Of a stretch of DNA of 33,527 nucleotides, positions 4,416-15,645 are shown one piece after another; the stretch's first letter is position 1, and every line of letters starts with the position of its first letter. This DNA is from Bacteroidales bacterium (GTDB lineage Bacteria; Bacteroidota; Bacteroidia; Bacteroidales; UBA12077). A model generated the notes under the pieces. That model did not search any database. It saw only the letters and a list, made by a program, of their open reading frames with translations, and was not told the origin of the DNA. The stretch lies in NCBI GenBank assembly GCA_027859205.1, contig JAQIBH010000068.1, positions 1-33,527 on the forward strand, given 5' to 3'. A program made the translations under genes and the position numbers.

Positions 4416-4871
4416 TTAGAATCGTTCAACAAATGATAAGAGCACAACTGACATGCCTTGCTTTCCTTCTCTAAAGTTTACGAAAACGTGATAGACACTA
4501 GTTTGTGTACATCTAAAATCAAAAGTTGGGTAGCTATTCCCTGTTGCTACCATATAGTTTGTTCCCAAAAGTCTATTGTTATCGAAAAGTTGAAGAATTG
4601 CTTCACCCGGGAAATCTCTGGAATTACAAATTGAGAATCTATATATAGTGTTTTTACTTAATAAAAGAGAATACCTATCGCTTTGTTGTTCTTCGCCAGC
4701 TTTAGAAGCTTCTAATTTTATTTGAAAATCTTTTAAATATGTAGCTTCACCATTCTGATTGGCTACCATTCCACAAATATCAACTAATTCCTGACCAGAC
4801 TGAGCGAATAAAGTGTTATTAGCCAGTAAAAAAACCACAAATAAAGTAAATATTTTATAAACGTTTTTCAT
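4416..4871 (-). CDS. Small secreted protein of unknown function
   Basis: The 151-residue product begins with a clear signal peptide (basic MKNVYK, hydrophobic core, cleavage expected after LFA or LFAQ). The mature part is mostly beta-prone, with three cysteines and segments such as YRFSICNSRDFPGEAILQL and VYHVFVNF that suggest a small beta-sandwich. It starts two bases after the stop of the upstream lipoprotein gene, so the two are almost certainly translated from the same message and likely act together in the periplasm or outer membrane. It is the last gene of the ten-gene minus-strand cluster. No family was recognised. Confidence 0.8.
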   Translation of the reverse strand: MKNVYKIFTLFVVFLLANNTLFAQSGQELVDICGMVANQNGEATYLKDFQIKLEASKAGEEQQSDRYSLLLSKNTIYRFSICNSRDFPGEAILQLFDNNRLLGTNYMVATGNSYPTFDFRCTQTSVYHVFVNFREGKQGMSVVLLSFVERF

Positions 4872-4873
4872 AT

Positions 4874-5785
4874 TTACAACTGTATTATTTTATTCCGAAC
4901 TTCAACAGTTTTATCAATAATTTTAAATAATATTTCATCGGAAATATCGATAAACTGTTTGTCATTTTGTTTAATTACTAACATTCCATCTTCTTCAACC
5001 ATTTCAGGTTCTCCTAATATAGAAGTAATAGTAACTTCTTTAAATAAAGCCTGTATTTCGGCCAAATCTGCAACTAATACTTTAAAGTCAGGATTTCTTT
5101 CATAATTTTTTAGTAGTAGCATTAAATTACTTAATATTATTTTTTGTTCTCCAATTTTTTCAGATAACTCTGAGTTAGGAGATTTTTTTATTACTTCACC
5201 TAATAAATATATACTTTCGATCCAAACACCGGCAACAATTAAAGAACTTAAATTACTTCTATTGTTCTCGGTCAAATATCGATCCATTTGATTAAAATTC
5301 TGAACAGAAATGTACATCAACGAATCTAAATTTTGATTATTTGTAGCTAATCTTTTTAGTGTGGTGAAGTCAAAGAACTGTCCAACATGTATTCCATCTG
5401 CTAGTGACTTAATTGCCGAAATATAATCAATAACTGAGCCAGTTTTATTGTACATGTTTTGGTAACCTAAATCTGCACCAAAAATTCCTAAACCTAAAGC
5501 TTTTTTAAAGCTTGTATTATACTTGTCAACAAAATCGGTAGTAGCAAGATAATCTTTAGAATATGGTACACCTACAGCTTTTATTAATGCTGCTATTTCA
5601 ACTGGAGAGGAAATATTTTCAACAATATCATCCATTGCTTCTGCAGAAATTGCAAGTTCTCCAGCATATCTCTGAGAATCAGGTATTTCAAATTCACTCG
5701 AGAAGTCATCTTTTTTTTGTTTATTCTCCCCGCACGAAGTAATTAATAACAAAAGTAAAAGTATGTAAATCAATCGTTTGCTCAT
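4874..5785 (-). CDS. Predicted lipoprotein of unknown function
   Basis: The product is a 303-residue lipoprotein: MSKRLIYI, a leucine-rich core, then the lipobox LLITSC with Cys18 as the lipidation site. The body is largely helical and hydrophilic, with no transmembrane segment and no recognised catalytic motif. The ATG at 5785 is preferred over the TTG at 5806 of the ORF track because it gives a compact signal sequence and because a -7-like element lies just upstream. It is separated by 80 bp from the ABC transporter gene and is followed after two bases by the small secreted protein. Its position suggests a partner, sensor or cargo receptor of the transporter system, which is inference only. 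Confidence 0.85.
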   Translation of the reverse strand: MSKRLIYILLLLLLITSCGENKQKKDDFSSEFEIPDSQRYAGELAISAEAMDDIVENISSPVEIAALIKAVGVPYSKDYLATTDFVDKYNTSFKKALGLGIFGADLGYQNMYNKTGSVIDYISAIKSLADGIHVGQFFDFTTLKRLATNNQNLDSLMYISVQNFNQMDRYLTENNRSNLSSLIVAGVWIESIYLLGEVIKKSPNSELSEKIGEQKIILSNLMLLLKNYERNPDFKVLVADLAEIQALFKEVTITSILGEPEMVEEDGMLVIKQNDKQFIDISDEILFKIIDKTVEVRNKIIQL

Positions 5786-5814
5786 AATTAATATGTTGTT
5801 TTTCAATTATATTG

Positions 5815-5865: not shown

Positions 5866-8800
5866 TTATTTTTTAAACTTTAACTTTTCTGGCAGATCAA
5901 GTAATTTTTTAAGTAATTCGTAATACAATGTAATATAGAAAAACAATGTTAAAACCCAAATAAATATAAGATTAAACCAATAAGTTTCATGGAATTTGCC
6001 TGCAAAATACTTTCTTGGTGCAAAGAAATGGGATCTGAAATTAAGAAATCCTTCAATATCAGGATCTCTGTAAATTGGATCCTTTTGTTGAATCAATTCA
6101 TTTTTATATTGCACAATGTGATTTTTTTCGAATGCTTTTTTAACTTGATCTTCAACGCTTTCATTATGAAATGCTGCACGTTTTGAATTATAATGTTCTG
6201 GATTTGTTTTTAAAAGGTAACGAATAATATTTTCTTTTTCGTTATTGGCTTTTTGGTATATTAAACCGTAATATGAATCCAATTTTTCGATAAAATCAAA
6301 TACTTTGTAAAGTACAATTTCATTAAATTGTGTTGTGTCAAGTTGATGTCCTATTACTAATGGAATTCCCGTTCTTGTTTCTTCTTTTGAAAGTTCATTT
6401 TTAAGTAATCCTAAATAGTTGGTGATTTTTTCTTTAACCTTGTCATCAGAACTAAATTTATACCAATTATCTTCAATATAAGTCAAGCGTTCCTCAAGTT
6501 CTGGTATATAATATACGTTTTTAAAGTCTGCGGTACTTATTCTTTTTTCAATTTCATAAAAGGTCTTCTCAAACTTGTTATTCTTAAACTGATTAACCAT
6601 TAAAGCTTCAAATGACCATTTTGTAGGCATGAATTCTGCAATAAATGGAACTTTTTTAACACTGCCAATTGATCTATTCATTTTGTCGAACGGAAACATT
6701 GCACCACTTAAAATCATCATTGGAATCATTACTAATGGTATTAAGATATAAATAGTAACTGCAGAATTAAAAGAAGCAGAAACATTTAATCCAAGCATAT
6801 TCGCAAATGCAGCAGTTGTAAATAAAGCAAACCAGTATTCAAAGGTCATTGATCTAATTCCAAGGATGTTATTTGCAATTAACACAAAAAGAATTGCTTG
6901 TATTGCTGAAATTGTAAATAAGATAAAGATCTTGGAAACCAAATAACTTGACCGACTTAATTTAAGGAAAGCTTCTCGTTTTAATATTTTCCTATCGCGG
7001 AATATTTCTTCGGCACTTACAGTTAATCCTAAAAATAAGGCAACGATTAGGGCCATAAATATGTATATATGAATATTTTCGTTTTCGCGAAATATATAAA
7101 CCTTTGAATTGGGATCTGCAATGTATCTGATTATAAAAGATAGGATAAAACCTAAAACTGGAGCCTCTAATAAGTTTAGAGCAATATATTGTGTATTACT
7201 TATTTTTGAAAGAAAATCGCGAATTGTAAATATCTGAAGTTGCTTAAACCAAGACGGAATGCTTAGTGTAGATGGAGGTGCATCAGCTACAGTTTTTACT
7301 TTTTTACTTTTTACATTTTTTTTAAAATTTTCTTCCCATTTTGGTGGAGAAATCTTTCTTTTTCGAGTATATTTTCCATATTCATCAACGACTTTGGCTT
7401 CGATAATATTAAAAAGAAGTTCGGGATTAACATTACCACATGTAGGACATTCGCCAACATCGCTGTTTATTTGTGCGTCCAGCTTTTTAAAGTACATTAC
7501 ACCTTCAACAGGATTACCATAATAAATCATATAGCCACCTGTGTCAAGAATCATCATATTATCGAACATTTTATAAATGTCTGATGAGGGTTGATGAATA
7601 ACAACAAAAATGAGTTTTCCTTTAAGAGCAAGTTCGCGAAGTAAATCCATTACATTCTCAGAATCCCGTGATGATAAACCGGAGGTTGGTTCATCTACCA
7701 AAAGAATGGAAGGTTCTCTTATTAATTCAAGTGCAATATTTAATCTTTTACGCTGACCACCGCTAATCATTTTGTTCATGGGTGATCCTACCTTAAGATC
7801 TTTACGATCAAATAAACCAAGACTTGTAAGGGTTTTATTAACCAGTTCAACGATTTCTATTTCAGATTTATTGTTGAAACATAGTTTTGCATTATAATAT
7901 AGATTTTGAAAAACCGTTAGTTCTTCAATTAATAAATCGTCTTGAGGAATATATCCAATAATTCCTTCAAGTTTATCTTTTTCTTTATGAAGATCTATTC
8001 CATTAATGAGAATTTCTCCCGATGTAGGAACGCTTAATCCGGTAAGAACATTTAGTAATGTAGTTTTTCCGGCACCACTAGCACCCATTAATCCAATTAA
8101 TTTACCTTGATCCTCAGAAAATTGGATATTTCTTAATCCAATACCACCATTTGGGAATACATAATTAAGCTTGTTGGCAATAAATGAAATTTTTGTTGAG
8201 GTACTATCAGAAAGGTAATGAGCAACAATATCACTATAGTATATTGGTTTACCTTTTGGTAATTTTATTGTTCCTCCACTAGCGAACAGATATATTTTAT
8301 TATTGCTAACTGGTAATCCGTTTAAGAAAATATCTTCATTACCGGTATAACGCATGAAATAAAGATCAACACTTTTAATTTGCAGGATAAAAATATTGCC
8401 ATTTAAAGCTTCAACTCTTACGTGTTTAGCTTCTTTGCATTGATTTTCTTTATCGTTAATAATAAGGTTCCCGAACTTGTCAATTTCAGAAATTCCGTTA
8501 TGAATAACGAAATTTTCAATATTTCGGAATTCTTCTCTTGTAAGTTTAAATACTTCAGATACAGTGTGTATGATTGCCATACGTTGTTCAGAAAACTTTC
8601 GGTCGGCATTAACCAACTCAAAAAGTCTAACTAGAACAATAATCTTCTGTTTTTGAGTAAGAGTTTTATTAATTTTTTTACAAATCCCTAAAATCCTTAC
8701 AGAATCTTTAACAGAAGTTAGTTTTATTTCGTTATTTTTTTCAGCTTTTTGATCTAAAAAGCCAGCTTTTTCGTCGAAAAGCGCCATGTATTCAGGCACA

Positions 8801-8928
8801 GCTTCGTCATTTAATTGCTGTGTTAAGAAGTTATTTACAAATTCCCTTTCGCCAGTTTCTACACCTTGATCTTGTTTTGCTATAATAGCGAACAATTGCA
8901 TAAGGGCTTTTAAAATTTCTTCACTCAT
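5866..8928 (-). CDS. ABCG-type ABC transporter (ATPase-permease fusion) with N-terminal TerB-like domain
   Basis: The product is a 1020-residue half-transporter. Residues 1-~145 are helical and resemble the TerB tellurite-resistance fold. Residues ~170-245 are a beta-rich stretch that could be a degenerate FHA-like domain. The nucleotide-binding domain follows, with Walker A GASGAGKTT (282-290), signature SGGQ (389-392), Walker B ILLVDEP (408-414) and H-loop His445. A CPTC pair at 494-497 links to the membrane domain. About five helices lie between ~575 and ~760, then a long soluble segment, and a last helix near 990. The order NBD then permease with NPVEGVMYF is ABCG-like (ABC-2 exporters). 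All ATPase motifs look intact. The gene follows siaC by 46 bp, which suggests it is a target or output of that switch. Substrate unknown. Confidence 0.88.
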   Translation of the reverse strand: MSEEILKALMQLFAIIAKQDQGVETGEREFVNNFLTQQLNDEAVPEYMALFDEKAGFLDQKAEKNNEIKLTSVKDSVRILGICKKINKTLTQKQKIIVLVRLFELVNADRKFSEQRMAIIHTVSEVFKLTREEFRNIENFVIHNGISEIDKFGNLIINDKENQCKEAKHVRVEALNGNIFILQIKSVDLYFMRYTGNEDIFLNGLPVSNNKIYLFASGGTIKLPKGKPIYYSDIVAHYLSDSTSTKISFIANKLNYVFPNGGIGLRNIQFSEDQGKLIGLMGASGAGKTTLLNVLTGLSVPTSGEILINGIDLHKEKDKLEGIIGYIPQDDLLIEELTVFQNLYYNAKLCFNNKSEIEIVELVNKTLTSLGLFDRKDLKVGSPMNKMISGGQRKRLNIALELIREPSILLVDEPTSGLSSRDSENVMDLLRELALKGKLIFVVIHQPSSDIYKMFDNMMILDTGGYMIYYGNPVEGVMYFKKLDAQINSDVGECPTCGNVNPELLFNIIEAKVVDEYGKYTRKRKISPPKWEENFKKNVKSKKVKTVADAPPSTLSIPSWFKQLQIFTIRDFLSKISNTQYIALNLLEAPVLGFILSFIIRYIADPNSKVYIFRENENIHIYIFMALIVALFLGLTVSAEEIFRDRKILKREAFLKLSRSSYLVSKIFILFTISAIQAILFVLIANNILGIRSMTFEYWFALFTTAAFANMLGLNVSASFNSAVTIYILIPLVMIPMMILSGAMFPFDKMNRSIGSVKKVPFIAEFMPTKWSFEALMVNQFKNNKFEKTFYEIEKRISTADFKNVYYIPELEERLTYIEDNWYKFSSDDKVKEKITNYLGLLKNELSKEETRTGIPLVIGHQLDTTQFNEIVLYKVFDFIEKLDSYYGLIYQKANNEKENIIRYLLKTNPEHYNSKRAAFHNESVEDQVKKAFEKNHIVQYKNELIQQKDPIYRDPDIEGFLNFRSHFFAPRKYFAGKFHETYWFNLIFIWVLTLFFYITLYYELLKKLLDLPEKLKFKK

Positions 8929-8974: not shown

Positions 8975-9355
8975 TTACAAAGTATAACTTACTTGTTCGA
9001 ATGGTACGTCAACAATATCAGCATATTCTTCACCTGCTTCTTCCATATCTTCATCATCATCAGGGAAAAACCATTTAATTAAAACGTTTTTTCCGTCTTC
9101 ATGCATTTCTTCAAGTTTCATTAAAATGTCAAGAATTAATTTTGAAGATGCTGTATTGAAGTATACAAGTTTAAAAGCAAAGATTGTCTTTTCATTTGCT
9201 TCTTCATGATAATCGTCAAGCCAATTAAGTACAGGTTCGTAAAATGTTGTTACGTCTTCAGGAAGTGATCTACCCGAAATTTCAAAAATTCCACTATCCT
9301 TATCAAGTATGATTGTTGGAGTATCGTCAGTACTTTTTATCTTTATTACGTCCAT
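8975..9355 (-). CDS. siaC: SiaC-family regulatory phosphoprotein (DUF1987)
   Basis: This 126-residue acidic protein matches the SiaC/DUF1987 family in length and pattern: N-terminal TPTIILD..SGIFEISGRSLPED, then the central YFNTASSK segment. Thr68 falls at the position of the threonine that SiaB phosphorylates and SiaA dephosphorylates in Pseudomonas SiaC. In that system unphosphorylated SiaC binds and activates the diguanylate cyclase SiaD. No GGDEF gene is present here, so the partner must be different or encoded elsewhere. The gene sits between the siaB-like kinase (15 bp gap) and the ABC transporter. The very acidic segment DDDEDMEEAGEE near the C-terminus is conspicuous. Confidence 0.88.
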   Translation of the reverse strand: MDVIKIKSTDDTPTIILDKDSGIFEISGRSLPEDVTTFYEPVLNWLDDYHEEANEKTIFAFKLVYFNTASSKLILDILMKLEEMHEDGKNVLIKWFFPDDDEDMEEAGEEYADIVDVPFEQVSYTL

Positions 9356-9984: not shown

Positions 9985-12594
9985 TCAAAATTCTAATCCA
10001 ATTAGTAACACATCATCAATTTGTTTGGTTTTACCCTTCCATTTTTTAAAATACGTTGAAAACAGTGTTGAGTACTGTTGCATGGAAAGATCTTTATTTT
10101 CAACAATTTGAGATCTGATACGCTGTGGAGAATATTTTCTTCCTTCTGGTCCGCCTATTTGATCAGGCATGCCATCTGAGAAAATAAATATTTTATCTCC
10201 TTTAATTATTTCAATAGAATGATTAACAAAATCTTTTTCTGGTTTTTTTCTATGCGGAATACCACCAATTGCTTTCCGGTTTCCTTTATATTCAATTAAC
10301 TCACCATTTCTCAATAAATAGAGCGGTCTGTGAGCACCAGAATATTGTATTTCTTTCTTTTTTAAATTTATTCTACAAAATGCAATATCCATACCATCGC
10401 GAGCATCGGCATCAATTCTATCTTGTTTTAATGTTGTACGAACTCCATAATGCAATTTGTCAAGAATTTGTCCTGCATTATAATTAACATCGTGATCGAC
10501 AATATTGTTAAGTTGGAAAAACCCAATAAATGAAAGCAAAGCTCCAGGAACTCCATGGCCTGTGCAATCAACAGCAGAAATATACAATATATCTTCTTTT
10601 TTAAAGAACCATGGGAAATCACCACTTACAACGTCACGAGGCAAATAGAAGATAAAAGATTTTGGTAAATGCTCTTGTATTAGGGCAGTATTTGGTAGTA
10701 TTGATGACTGAATTCGTTGAGCATAATTAATACTTTCACTAATTTTCCTATTCTTATCTTTTATTTCAAGTTCGATTTGTTTTGCTTCGGTAATATCATG
10801 ACCTACAAACAAAATTGTCTCAAGTTCATTTTCATTAAATTCAGGAATAACATTATAATTCATTATTCTATTGCCAAGTTTTGCAGTAGGCATTGTTAGT
10901 TCTTGAATTATATTTTGATTGGTTCTTCTGATTTGTTTAATAGTATCTTTAAAGAAAGCAACAAGTGATGGCTCCATATCAAGTTCATCAATTCTTCCGT
11001 TTATTATATCTTTTGATTTAACCCCAATATAATCGTTAACCATAGGATTTGCATAAAAGAACTGTCCTTTTGTATTCATTCGAAGAATTAAATCCGGACT
11101 GTTTTCAGAAAGAGACTGCATTTTACTCTTCATTCTTTCTTCTTTCTCGGCTCTTTTTCTCTCTGTTATGTCTTGGGAGTTTAAAATAATTCCATTTATT
11201 GCAGGATCATTAAGTAAATTTCTACCAGTTGTTTCAATATGAATTTTTTGTCCATCCTTTTTAATGTAGGTATATTGAATGGCTCTTGGAGTGTGAGGAT
11301 CTTCTCTTAATTGATCAAACATTTCTTTCATTGCCGCTTCACCTTTTGCTGTCAATCGATCCATGTCTTTACCTCGCATCATTTCCTCAGGTGTATATCC
11401 AAGTATTTTTGTAACAGATGGACTTTGATATTTTAATTTAATATCACTATCGTATATTGATATTACTTCTGAAGCATTTTCTAATAAAGAGTGAAGTCTT
11501 TTTTGAGCATTTTCAACCTCTTTAATTTGAGTTTCAAGATTTTTATTTGAAATTTTAAGTTCCTCTTGAGTCGCTCTCATTTCCTCAGCATTCTGGCGGA
11601 GTTGCTCTTCGTTTGCTTTGAGTTCAACTGTCATTTGTTGAGACTCATGAAGCAACTTCTCCGTTTTCTGATTCATTCTTAAATTGTAGAGAGTACGAGC
11701 TATGATTTCTCCTAATTCTCTTAAAAACTCAATTGTTAGCTCTGGAAACTTGTCTTCAATTGAAGCAAATTCAATAATTCCTTGTAATTTCTCTTCTGCA
11801 ATTAAAGGAACAATTAATATACTCGAGGGTTTTTTATCTCCTAGAATCCCGGATGTTATAGAAGAATAATCTTCAGGAATTTCAGTTCGGTATACTATGT
11901 CTTGTTCGTAAGCACATTGACCAATTAATCCTTCTCCAATATGGAACTCCTGACTTATATATCTTTTTCTGTTATAAGCATAAGTAGCAACATTTCTGAG
12001 TTTTTTTGTCTCTTCATCATAGATATAAAAAGATCCTTGGAGTATGCTAATATATTTAATTAATTTAACGACTACTTCGTATGCTAACTCATCAATATCG
12101 TTGTTCATTCGAAGAATTCTAGAAATTAAATCATTACCTTCAGATATCCAGTTTTGTTCTTTTTCTTTTTTATTATTAGCAAGTAAATTGTTGCGCATAA
12201 CAATTAATGACCTTCCAATAATATCATCTTCGTTAATTAAATCTTCATTGTCATCGTAAACTCCTTCACCAATTTTTTTGGCAAAACGAGCATTCCTATT
12301 TATATCTTGGTCTCGCTGTTCTATTATTTTTTCAAAAGTAACTTTATCCTGTGCTCTTTTTTTAATTGAGAAGTATATTACAATTCCAACAATAATTGGA
12401 AGCAGATCAATTAACCAATGTATTGGGTTGGATTTGTGAATTTCAGTAATAGTATTAATAGAAACATTTAGATTATTATCTAATATATCAATCATCCAGG
12501 AGATAAAAAGAAATAATAGAGATGCTCCAACACCTATGATTATATCATTATATGTTATGGTACTTAATTTATTTTTCTGTTTCTTAACAGTCAT
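9985..12594 (-). CDS. Membrane GAF-PAS-PAS-SpoIIE serine/threonine phosphatase (SiaA-like role)
   Basis: The 869-residue protein has two N-terminal membrane helices (about 17-38 and 58-77), a GAF domain (about 150-310), a long coiled coil (about 310-370), two PAS domains (about 370-480 and 490-610, with DITERKRAE and DITEAKQ ends), and a C-terminal SpoIIE/PP2C phosphatase. Metal-binding acidic positions are kept: DVVSGDF, AVDCTGHGVPGA, IFSDGMPD and the final IDDVLLIG. In Sia systems the PP2C protein dephosphorylates SiaC, and the gene order here supports that role, although the sensory part differs from the HAMP-type SiaA. Ligands of GAF and PAS are unknown. The N-terminal half is similar in layout and sequence to the neighbouring GAF protein. 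Confidence 0.88.
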   Translation of the reverse strand: MTVKKQKNKLSTITYNDIIIGVGASLLFLFISWMIDILDNNLNVSINTITEIHKSNPIHWLIDLLPIIVGIVIYFSIKKRAQDKVTFEKIIEQRDQDINRNARFAKKIGEGVYDDNEDLINEDDIIGRSLIVMRNNLLANNKKEKEQNWISEGNDLISRILRMNNDIDELAYEVVVKLIKYISILQGSFYIYDEETKKLRNVATYAYNRKRYISQEFHIGEGLIGQCAYEQDIVYRTEIPEDYSSITSGILGDKKPSSILIVPLIAEEKLQGIIEFASIEDKFPELTIEFLRELGEIIARTLYNLRMNQKTEKLLHESQQMTVELKANEEQLRQNAEEMRATQEELKISNKNLETQIKEVENAQKRLHSLLENASEVISIYDSDIKLKYQSPSVTKILGYTPEEMMRGKDMDRLTAKGEAAMKEMFDQLREDPHTPRAIQYTYIKKDGQKIHIETTGRNLLNDPAINGIILNSQDITERKRAEKEERMKSKMQSLSENSPDLILRMNTKGQFFYANPMVNDYIGVKSKDIINGRIDELDMEPSLVAFFKDTIKQIRRTNQNIIQELTMPTAKLGNRIMNYNVIPEFNENELETILFVGHDITEAKQIELEIKDKNRKISESINYAQRIQSSILPNTALIQEHLPKSFIFYLPRDVVSGDFPWFFKKEDILYISAVDCTGHGVPGALLSFIGFFQLNNIVDHDVNYNAGQILDKLHYGVRTTLKQDRIDADARDGMDIAFCRINLKKKEIQYSGAHRPLYLLRNGELIEYKGNRKAIGGIPHRKKPEKDFVNHSIEIIKGDKIFIFSDGMPDQIGGPEGRKYSPQRIRSQIVENKDLSMQQYSTLFSTYFKKWKGKTKQIDDVLLIGLEF

Positions 12595-12609: not shown

Positions 12610-13380
12610 TTAAAACTTTAATAAAGTTTTGCCAATTTGATTAGACATACCTTCGAACAAGTCACTAAAGTTACGTTTAAATTCTTTAAAAGAAGCGAGC
12701 TCAACAATTGCCAATGTTTTATCTTCTAATATAATTGGAATAATTATTAAATGATTTGGAGAGCTACTTCCAAGTCCCGATAATATTGTTACATAATTAT
12801 CGGGGATATCCTTTAAATTTAAAGCGATTTTATTTTTAGCAACTTGACCTGATAATGTTTCACCTAAACTAAAGCTTTTTGGTTCTTCATCGCCAAAGTA
12901 GGCATATTTGCCTGCAATATTATAGGTGTCTTTGTCTTTATTTTTTACAAAAAATAGTCCCTGTACAATATCAAACTCCTTTGCAATGTTTGATAATATT
13001 TTTTCTGTGTATTTTTCTAAACTTAGTTTTGAATCAACTTTTGGTAATATTTTCTTAATATAAATTTCAACATCTAATAATTCTTCTTCGGTTTCACCTA
13101 TATCAACAATTTGTTGTGTTGATTTTTCATTGAATATATCAATTCCGTTATTAGAGTATTTTTCTTGAGTACTTTGTTTAGAGGAAACTAATATAGAAAG
13201 TATAAAAAGAATTAAGGTTAAAATTATTGCAACAATTAACAAAGTATTAATTGAATGATTATCAGAGATATTATATTCTAATAGTAAGTTCTGAATTTTC
13301 CCAAAAAGCACAAAGAATACAATAAATGTGGCAATAAGAGCTACAGAAGATAATATTTTATAAGTTCTATTTGTGTCCAT
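12610..13380 (-). CDS. Membrane-anchored GAF-domain protein
   Basis: The 256-residue protein has two membrane helices (about 9-31 and 45-65) followed by a GAF domain (about 105-255). There is no output domain. The GAF segments SLGETLSGQVAKNK, IPDNYVTILSGLG and IIIPIILEDKTLAIVELAS parallel HIGEGLIGQCAYEQ, IPEDYSSITSGILG and LIVPLIAEEKLQGIIEFAS in the downstream phosphatase. The gene therefore looks like a duplicated sensor half of that protein. It lies between cheB (9 bp) and the phosphatase gene (15 bp). It could modulate the phosphatase by heterodimerising, or sense a second signal; both are inferences. Confidence 0.82.
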   Translation of the reverse strand: MDTNRTYKILSSVALIATFIVFFVLFGKIQNLLLEYNISDNHSINTLLIVAIILTLILFILSILVSSKQSTQEKYSNNGIDIFNEKSTQQIVDIGETEEELLDVEIYIKKILPKVDSKLSLEKYTEKILSNIAKEFDIVQGLFFVKNKDKDTYNIAGKYAYFGDEEPKSFSLGETLSGQVAKNKIALNLKDIPDNYVTILSGLGSSSPNHLIIIPIILEDKTLAIVELASFKEFKRNFSDLFEGMSNQIGKTLLKF

Positions 13381-13389
13381 TAGTAATTA

Positions 13390-13947
13390 TCATTTTAAAT
13401 TCAATAAAAATTTGATAATTTGTTCCGTTGTAAAAATATGATCAACACTTGTTAGGTTTAGCGAAGCTTCGGTCATTGTTTTTACTTGACATTCATTAGG
13501 ATCTTGAACAATTGCTAAGCCTCCTGCTTGTTTTAATTTCTTCAAACCATTCGCTCCATCGCGATTAGCGCCAGATAATATTATTCCAATTAATTTGTCG
13601 CGATAAGCTTGTGCTGCTGTTTCAAAAGTAAGATCAATCGATGGGCGAGAATGATTTACCGGTTCTTCGGTTGATAAAGCAATACGCTTATTTAATTCGA
13701 TATACATATGATAATTAGCCGGAGCAAGATATCCTTTCCCTGGTTTTATATTTTCTTTATCGTAAGGTTCAACAATAGGAATTGAAGATTTTATAGACAA
13801 AGCTTCGACAAAGCCTGAACGCACATGTTTTAATCTGTGCAAGCTTAATAATACAGGCAAAGGGAAATTAATAGGTAACGAATTTAAGATTTTCGTAATT
13901 ACCTGAAAACTTCCTGCTGACCCTCCAATTACTACTGCTTTGTACAT
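13390..13947 (-). CDS. cheB: CheB-type protein-glutamate methylesterase, catalytic domain only
   Basis: This 185-residue protein is a CheB methylesterase domain. The catalytic triad is visible as Ser10 (VIGGSAGS), His37 (SLHRLKH) and Asp130 (SGANRDGANGL). The family normally removes methyl groups from glutamates of chemoreceptors. Classical CheB carries an N-terminal receiver domain that activates it on phosphorylation; here the protein starts directly at the catalytic domain, so it must be controlled in another way or be constitutive. It lies five bases after the second cheR gene, a pairing common for methylation systems, but no receptor gene is present. Confidence 0.9.
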   Translation of the reverse strand: MYKAVVIGGSAGSFQVITKILNSLPINFPLPVLLSLHRLKHVRSGFVEALSIKSSIPIVEPYDKENIKPGKGYLAPANYHMYIELNKRIALSTEEPVNHSRPSIDLTFETAAQAYRDKLIGIILSGANRDGANGLKKLKQAGGLAIVQDPNECQVKTMTEASLNLTSVDHIFTTEQIIKFLLNLK

Positions 13948-13952
13948 TTAGT

Positions 13953-14783
13953 TTATGATAATTTCTTTTTATAAATACTTTCTTCTTTGTTAATTAATGT
14001 GAAATCTTTATCTGAATTCCAGTAATCGATTATTTCATTATTTCCTACAATTAAATAACCTCCTGGAACTAATCCATTATAATTAATTTTAGTGTATCGC
14101 TCTTGTAAAATTTGATTAAAATAAATCATCTGATTTCGGAACAATACTAACTTTACACCCTTCGGATAATCATCAAATATAATATTTTGTTTTATAAATT
14201 TAGTATTCTCAATCAAAGAAGTATCCCAAAAAGCTTTCTCTCCTTCTTGAGTAAAAAATTCAGAAAGATCGCCTTCGCTAAATATTCTTTTATAATTAGC
14301 ATCATTTACTTCGATCTTTTTTGCATCGAAAATTCCTTTTTGAGTATTTTCAATAACAAGGTCACTAAGACTTGAGGCTATAAATTTAACATTCTTAAGT
14401 AGATTCAATTTCTTAAGTATAATAGCTGTTGAATACAATTCCTCGCCAGAAGCAACCTCGGGGAACCATATTTTAAAATTTATTGAATCTTGTATTTTAT
14501 TTGGGAATATTTCTTCTTTTAAAACTCTCCAAAGTGAGGGATCACGAAACATCTCCGTAGTTTCAACACATATACTCTGTAAGAATATTTCGAAAAAATC
14601 TTTTTCAGCTATAATCTTATTAATAAAGCCATCGGCATCTTTTAAATTTTTACTAATTATGATTTTTTCCACTCTACGCTTAAAAAATGTAAGAGCGTAA
14701 TTTTTAAAATCATAATTATAGACATCTTGTAATGTCTTTATTATATTTCGTGTATCAACTATGCCTAGTTCATATCTATTCAT
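13953..14783 (-). CDS. Divergent CheR-like protein, methyltransferase activity doubtful
   Basis: The 276-residue protein follows the CheR plan: N-terminal helical domain with VETTEMFRDPSLW, then a Rossmann-like domain. Compared with its upstream neighbour, several signature segments are altered. The SAM loop reads FPEVASGEELYS where the neighbour has HAGCSTGQEVYS. The acidic segment FASDLNT is IASSLSD, losing the Asp expected to hold the SAM ribose. LCRNVIIYF is LFRNQMIYF. Fold and GEE motif are kept, so it may bind substrate or partner without efficient methyl transfer, or have a modified pocket. It lies 22 bp from the canonical cheR and 5 bp from cheB. Membership in the family is firm, activity is not. 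Confidence 0.8.
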   Translation of the reverse strand: MNRYELGIVDTRNIIKTLQDVYNYDFKNYALTFFKRRVEKIIISKNLKDADGFINKIIAEKDFFEIFLQSICVETTEMFRDPSLWRVLKEEIFPNKIQDSINFKIWFPEVASGEELYSTAIILKKLNLLKNVKFIASSLSDLVIENTQKGIFDAKKIEVNDANYKRIFSEGDLSEFFTQEGEKAFWDTSLIENTKFIKQNIIFDDYPKGVKLVLFRNQMIYFNQILQERYTKINYNGLVPGGYLIVGNNEIIDYWNSDKDFTLINKEESIYKKKLS

Positions 14784-14805
14784 TGCATAATGCTTTTAAC
14801 ATCGT

Positions 14806-15645
14806 TTACTTTTTTTGATATGCCTGTCCCTTTTTATCAAATTGAGATGTAATCTCTCCGAGCATTGTTTCGTGCATACCCAAAACTAACAATCCCTTGG
14901 TATAAAGATGATCATGAAAAAGTTTAAATACTTTGTTCTGTAAGCTATATTTAAAGTAAATAATTACATTCCTACATAGAATAAGATCAAATTTTGCAAA
15001 ATATAAATTGCCCCCGTGCACTAAATCGTGTTGCCGGAATATTGGCTTTTGTCTTAAGAAATCATTTATCTGAATTGAATCAGATACCTTATCAATCTTA
15101 AAGTATTTCGAATAAGGGACATCATTATATTCTTCATAATTGTATGGATTTTCTTTTATAACTTTATCAAAGTTGTCAAGATATCCAATATTAAATCGAT
15201 ACTTATAATTTCCTTTTTTTGCTGCTTCAAGTGCATCGGTATTTAAATCACTTGCAAATATTTTTGCTTTGTCCAAAAGCCCAAGTTCATTTAATAAAAT
15301 CATCATTGAATAAACTTCTTGACCTGTAGAACAGCCGGCGTGCCAAATATTAATATTCCTATTTTCAGAAAACTCAGGTAGAATTCTATAACGCAAAGTT
15401 TGCCAAATTTGAGGATCACGAAAAAGCTCAGTAGTGTTAACGGTAATATCTCTCACCGTTTTTTCTAAGAAAGATTTATTAGTTTTTAATTTATTAATAA
15501 GCCCAAGAAGATCGGTATTGTTATCGATAAGAATTTTTTGTAAACGACGTTTAAGTGACTTTTCAGAATACTCACTAAAATCGTATCCCGATGTATTTTT
15601 AATGGTATTTACAAAAAATTGTGCTTCTTGATCAGATAGAACCAT
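14806..15645 (-). CDS. cheR: CheR-type protein-glutamate O-methyltransferase
   Basis: The 279-residue protein has the full CheR pattern: an N-terminal domain with VNTTELFRDPQIW, SAM-binding loop GCSTGQEVYS (104 onward), the acidic ribose-binding segment FASDLNTDALE, and the substrate/N-motif LILCRNVIIYF. CheR uses S-adenosylmethionine to methylate receptor glutamates. It is the first gene of the minus-strand cluster, with a -7 promoter element about 70 bp upstream, and no receptor, CheA or CheW is encoded in the window. No fused TPR or PAS domain is seen. Confidence 0.92.
   Translation of the reverse strand: MVLSDQEAQFFVNTIKNTSGYDFSEYSEKSLKRRLQKILIDNNTDLLGLINKLKTNKSFLEKTVRDITVNTTELFRDPQIWQTLRYRILPEFSENRNINIWHAGCSTGQEVYSMMILLNELGLLDKAKIFASDLNTDALEAAKKGNYKYRFNIGYLDNFDKVIKENPYNYEEYNDVPYSKYFKIDKVSDSIQINDFLRQKPIFRQHDLVHGGNLYFAKFDLILCRNVIIYFKYSLQNKVFKLFHDHLYTKGLLVLGMHETMLGEITSQFDKKGQAYQKK

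Follow-up and report, generated by a model that had tools for sequence, protein, structure and literature searches.

In the 33,527-nucleotide stretch of DNA analyzed here (the window), an ABC exporter takes the position that SiaD holds in the SiaABCD operon, and we consider that there is about an even chance that this type V (ABCG) exporter is the output of the SiaA-SiaB-SiaC partner switch encoded next to it. The operon has ten genes, in the order CheR-CheR-CheB-GAF-SiaA-SiaB-SiaC-ABCG-lipoprotein-secreted protein (p151), and no GGDEF gene (SiaD diguanylate cyclase) was found in it. Its genes and the domains of the exporter, all on the minus strand, are as follows.

13953-14783 and 14806-15645, minus strand: two CheR-like methyltransferases, named by reading of the ORFs; operon conserved
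13390-13947, minus strand: CheB-like methylesterase, 185 aa, named by reading of the ORF; operon conserved
12610-13380, minus strand: membrane-anchored GAF protein, 256 aa; operon conserved
9985-12594, minus strand: SiaA-like PP2C/SpoIIE phosphatase with GAF and two PAS domains, 869 aa
9371-9946, minus strand: SiaB-family protein kinase, 191 aa (NCBIfam NF038262, 2e-51, above cutoff)
8975-9355, minus strand: SiaC homologue, 126 aa (PF09345, 2.9e-41; alignment to 6kko/7e6g)
5866-8928, minus strand: TerB/FHA-like/ABCG exporter, 1020 aa (40-51 homologues aligned)
8518-8907, minus strand: TerB domain of the exporter, residues 8-137 (Pfam PF05099, 7.6e-9; AF2 helices)
8650-8724, minus strand: residues 69-93 of the TerB region (linker plus helix 4), candidate for contact with SiaC, kept merely as a lead
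8212-8469, minus strand: FHA-like beta domain, residues 154-239, without the canonical phosphothreonine-binding residues (AF2, Foldseek against PDB, column counts)
7519-8136, minus strand: ABC ATPase domain (Pfam ABC_tran at residues 265-416, 3.2e-32, above cutoff)
7438-7449, minus strand: C494-P-T-C497, an invariant C-x2-C (51/51 homologues)
6586-7242, minus strand: ABC-2/ABCG membrane domain, residues 563-781 (Pfam PF01061, ABC2_membrane, 5.8e-25, above cutoff; hydropathy)
6034-6573, minus strand: large loop before the last transmembrane segment, residues ~786-965 (hydropathy; conserved HF.aP.K motif)
4874-5806, minus strand: helical lipoprotein, ~303-310 aa, of no known family (no Pfam match), co-occurring with the exporter
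4416-4871, minus strand: small secreted beta-type protein (p151), 151 aa, of no known family, conserved in the operon

The SiaC gene lies 46 nt upstream of the exporter gene, on the same strand, and its product aligns over the full length with solved SiaC (YFNTAS versus YLNTSS), with a Thr at the position of T68 of Pseudomonas aeruginosa. The window proteins scored below the NCBIfam equivalog cutoffs for SiaA and SiaC. At loci of the window type, the CheB-like and the two CheR-like genes (13390-15645) lie at the upstream end of the operon; no chemoreceptor was seen among the listed ORFs. At the other end, the lipoprotein is likelier to start at the ATG at 5785 than at the TTG at 5806, and its lipobox Cys is invariant (alignment A3, 20 rows). 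An AF2 model (pLDDT 79.9) is helical with a four-stranded insert, and the PDB search gave no credible fold match for it. At two loci (L134:6562-7955 and L135:6298-7687), the helical lipoprotein is likewise paired with a small secreted protein, although no exporter lies beside them.

The exporter ORF (5866-8928, ATG start) was confirmed as real. Its product consists of a TerB domain, an FHA-like beta domain, a type V (ABCG) ATPase and a membrane domain with a large loop before the last transmembrane segment, so that ~260 residues precede the ATPase. The complete set of ATPase motifs (Walker A GASGAGKTT at 282, ISGGQ at 388, Walker B ILLVDEP at 408 and the H-switch IHQPS at 444), together with the order of ATPase and then ABC2 membrane domain, identifies it at the sequence level as an ABCG, or type V, ABC exporter. 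Human ABCG1 is the closest solved sequence match spanning both domains (exporter residues 266-751, E 7e-39). Against the six transmembrane helices expected of an ABCG exporter, hydropathy indicates five clear hydrophobic ones, i.e., four transmembrane segments, a loop of ~200 residues and the last segment; the loop (~786-965) is probably periplasmic. The earlier note had pointed to a CPTC pair between the ATPase and the membrane domain. Both cysteines, C494 and C497, are indeed invariant in all 51 aligned homologues (as is C350), while the two residues between them vary (CTTC, CQIC, CPVC, CSVC and CDHC), and we therefore dropped CPTC as a specific motif in favor of C-x2-C. The CxxCG knuckle follows the ATPase, in the cytosolic part of the chain, and points to metal binding. 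The metal would probably be zinc, and the site may be shared by two protomers, since each chain offers only two ligands.

The same note had described the N terminus as TerB-like, followed by a domain reminiscent of FHA, and both descriptions held up, the second at the level of the fold. PF05099 matches the exporter with 36.3 bits (curated cutoff, 24.4) and recognizes 17 of the 18 family members in alignment A1. The AF2 model of residues 1-262, built on that 18-row alignment, has a pLDDT of 83.6 overall (ca. 90 in the beta domain, with residues 60-70 disordered) and is made up of seven to eight helices followed by the beta domain at 154-239. When this model was compared with the PDB by Foldseek, FHA domains came top and dominated the list (5yyx, CEP170, KIF1A and Rad53), and the TerB-like structure 2h5n was also among the matches. 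The best match, 5yyx, has an E value of 4.4e-3 (probability, 1.00), and none reaches 1e-3; the predicted resemblance to FHA is thus a moderately strong fold likeness, which convinces because the list is so uniform. The only match of the N terminus in the PDB sequence search, to a toxin binding domain (E 0.0019), was put down to chance, and the fold search gave it no support. At the sequence level, Pfam FHA (PF00498) missed 17 of the 18 exporter members (the single match had E 0.12), and no PF00498 domain was found in the source genome or 11 relatives. Profile-profile comparison with real FHA domains of other Bacteroidota gave a weak alignment (local P 0.0077) that covers the C-terminal half, including the V/L-N-G strand.

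The residues with which an FHA domain binds its phosphopeptide were, when looked for, missing. In column counts over 51 homologues, with pocket positions placed by sequence and secondary structure rather than by structural superposition, neither the Arg of the canonical GR nor the Ser of SxxH had a conserved counterpart: columns 157-158 hold I and then N/D/H/S, and column 166 holds E/N/K/H/Q. The structural His is partly kept (31/51). What is conserved in the domain is N203-G204, the adjacent G196, Y194 and Y230-Y231, and "degenerate FHA-like" is the most fitting description of the exporter beta domain.

The window comes from a Bacteroidales-type genome, and the nearest loci are 81 to 88% identical. 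The order SiaA-SiaB-SiaC-ABCG-lipoprotein-p151 is kept in about 30 loci from public genomes of Bacteroidota, down to an exporter identity of 52% (L029 and L032), with small variations in gene order upstream of SiaA at the more distant loci. The operon is also present on one contig labeled Kosmotogales (Thermotogota; L010), where the exporter is 81% identical to that of the window; this is almost certainly a misbinned Bacteroidales contig. Other arrangements are still SiaC adjacent, with SiaB-SiaC tail-to-tail in L050 and L074 and SiaC downstream in L051. The source genome itself (assembly G000, 3.6 Mb) has four exporter paralogues, all accompanied by the lipoprotein: that of the window (contig C15), one with SiaB-SiaC tail-to-tail (C4), one with SiaC next door (C117) and one whose contig ends upstream (C47). 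In three genomes (G049, G146 and G186), which are related and hence not independent cases, there is just one SiaC gene, and it sits in the exporter operon. This recurrent adjacency supports a functional linkage of the exporter to SiaC. In the exporter tree (n = 51), a single large clade is SiaC linked; L050, L074 and L051 branch more deeply and are linked as well, and a sister clade (L075-L080) is unlinked. No single supported clade unites the three types of linked SiaC. Several homologues keep the TerB and FHA-like domains although no SiaC is linked to them, and the genome G348 encodes the exporter but lacks SiaC altogether. The exporter family is lineage restricted, since only 8 of 396 genomes in a phylum census had any match, ca. 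6 of them with full-length proteins.

We also looked for a SiaC contact site by contrasting linked and unlinked exporters. In residues 66-93, a stretch picked after the fact for this contrast, 9 of 14 conserved columns are lost, versus 37 of 526 overall. However, the control showed that, within the N terminus, conservation is lowest at 66-93 whichever group is taken, with 0.46 kept in distant SiaC-linked members. The docking-site inference is weak because this stretch diverges everywhere and most unlinked exporter rows belong to one clade, and mapping by this contrast was dropped. Only S76-V-[RK]-x-L80 stays as a lead; this motif, at the start of the helix 73-89, is present in 12 of 13 SiaC-linked representatives and absent in 8 unlinked ones. 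L051 is SiaC linked, yet it has lost most of the motif. In the same conservation control, the FHA-like region was kept at 0.74 to 0.83 in unlinked copies versus 0.76 in distant linked ones. Such equal retention argues against a dedicated SiaC reader.

In P. aeruginosa, SiaB phosphorylates SiaC at T68 and SiaA removes the phosphate (PMC7647112). Without the phosphate, SiaC binds SiaD at its helical stalk, N67-T68-S69 being part of the interface, and phosphorylation of T68 abolishes binding; the authors of that study suggested a role of DUF1987 proteins in modulating the proteins next to them (PMC8457831). By analogy, the phosphorylation of SiaC at T68 would be set by the kinase SiaB and by the signal-receiving GAF/PAS phosphatase SiaA, which work against each other. 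The unphosphorylated SiaC would then bind the exporter at its N-terminal, cytosolic part and alter its activity. That contact would take place in the unphosphorylated state is the parsimonious inference, because of the SiaC-SiaD logic of P. aeruginosa and the conservation of T68; direct binding itself, its site and the sign of its effect are put forward on the same footing. The contact seems likelier to be helical (the TerB region, perhaps residues 69-93) than to involve the FHA-like domain, which, having lost its phosphate pocket, probably has a structural or NBD-coupling role in a putative homodimer. On the periplasmic side, the lipoprotein and the small secreted protein may act with the exported substrate.

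The earlier note had suggested a phospho-dependent docking region; in this model, the FHA-like domain would read pT68 and so dock SiaC to the exporter. The fold of the beta domain and the exporter-SiaC linkage would suit this model, and there is a precedent in the Mycobacterium tuberculosis ABC transporter Rv1747, whose FHA I reads pT237 of Rv2623 (PMC5549992). We nevertheless regard it as very improbable. The GR Arg and SxxH Ser are missing, Pfam FHA misses the domain, the source genome and 11 relatives have no canonical FHA, the logic is the reverse of that of SiaC, whose phosphorylation abolishes binding to SiaD, and conservation of the region does not follow SiaC linkage. Phospho-dependent docking in the form given is thus not supported, and the missing pocket residues plus the reverse logic rule out phospho-reading as the likeliest interpretation.

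Two other explanations deserve more weight, although each appears rather unlikely. SiaC might control another protein, e.g., a regulator elsewhere, with the exporter merely cotranscribed and both serving one response. The many SiaC genes of the source genome that are orphan or beside unrelated genes would fit such a situation, as would the existence of unlinked exporters and of an unlinked SiaB-SiaC pair in Ancylomarina. Against it, SiaC adjacency recurs in different gene orders and as the sole SiaC of three genomes, and the exporter occupies the position of SiaD. The TerB-FHA-like region might instead be a SiaC-independent module, family-wide, for dimerization or NBD regulation, with SiaC acting elsewhere on the exporter, if at all; we doubt this to a similar degree. 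The retention of the region without a linked SiaC, G348 included, does indicate that it has another role, and Y194, G196 and Y230-Y231 are invariant whatever the linkage, but such a module leaves the SiaC linkage unexplained. It is in any case not exclusive of an exporter gated by SiaC.

An exporter as the output of the switch would bear on a widespread family, SiaC (DUF1987), whose one characterized target is a diguanylate cyclase. The source genome has 19 SiaC (PF09345) genes on 15 contigs, many of them orphan and some in tandem pairs (contigs C66, C78 and C108), and one GGDEF only, which lies on a contig (C33) that carries no SiaC. Perlabentimonas gracilis has ~17 SiaC genes. We also noted a SiaC directly downstream of a MacB/FtsX-type ABC permease (L093:5847-7475), a pair kept in 11 of 11 evaluable genomes, the source genome included, one of which is from another family, and a 370-aa protein with two SiaB-type (DUF6272) matches adjoining a SiaC (L095:7409-8521). 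It is possible, and we propose it only tentatively, that SiaC-type threonine partner switches directly gate exporters, the TerB/FHA-like ABCG and, separately, the MacB/FtsX-type permease, with SiaC as a general post-translational adaptor of envelope transport in Bacteroidota with as many as 19 SiaC genes and hardly any GGDEF. An exporter at the target position of a conserved operon would represent a second, testable SiaC output and a route to the function of many Bacteroidota SiaC genes. If the switch does gate the exporter, it would be a new output for SiaA/SiaB/SiaC, and an ABCG transporter would be under phospho-switch control without a phosphothreonine-reading FHA domain.

Our literature search found no relevant work on SiaC with ABC exporters or on TerB-ABC fusions. 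The N terminus shares its helical TerB-type fold with the TerB-like protein PG1108 (PDB 2h5n), whose solved chain, unlike the window protein, is not fused to an exporter. The core resembles the eukaryotic ABCG half-transporters (ABCG1, ABCG2 and ABCG5) in its ABC2 membrane domain and in the order of ATPase and membrane domain, to which the window exporter adds the TerB and FHA-like domains, the segment with CxxC and, ahead of the last transmembrane segment, a far larger loop. Rv1747 of M. tuberculosis, an FHA-FHA-ABC exporter, likewise combines an N-terminal FHA-type domain with a Thr-phosphorylated partner (Rv2623). However, its FHA is a functional pT-binding domain, whereas that of the window has no phosphate-binding residues, is preceded by TerB and would have SiaC as the partner. 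With SiaABCD of P. aeruginosa, the window shares a SiaA phosphatase, a SiaB kinase and a SiaC that has T68; the three genes are arranged alike in a single operon, with an output gene, putative in the window, after them. Here, in contrast, the output would be an ABCG exporter with TerB and FHA-like domains instead of the diguanylate cyclase SiaD, and the set is preceded by CheR, CheB and GAF genes and followed by the lipoprotein and the secreted protein.
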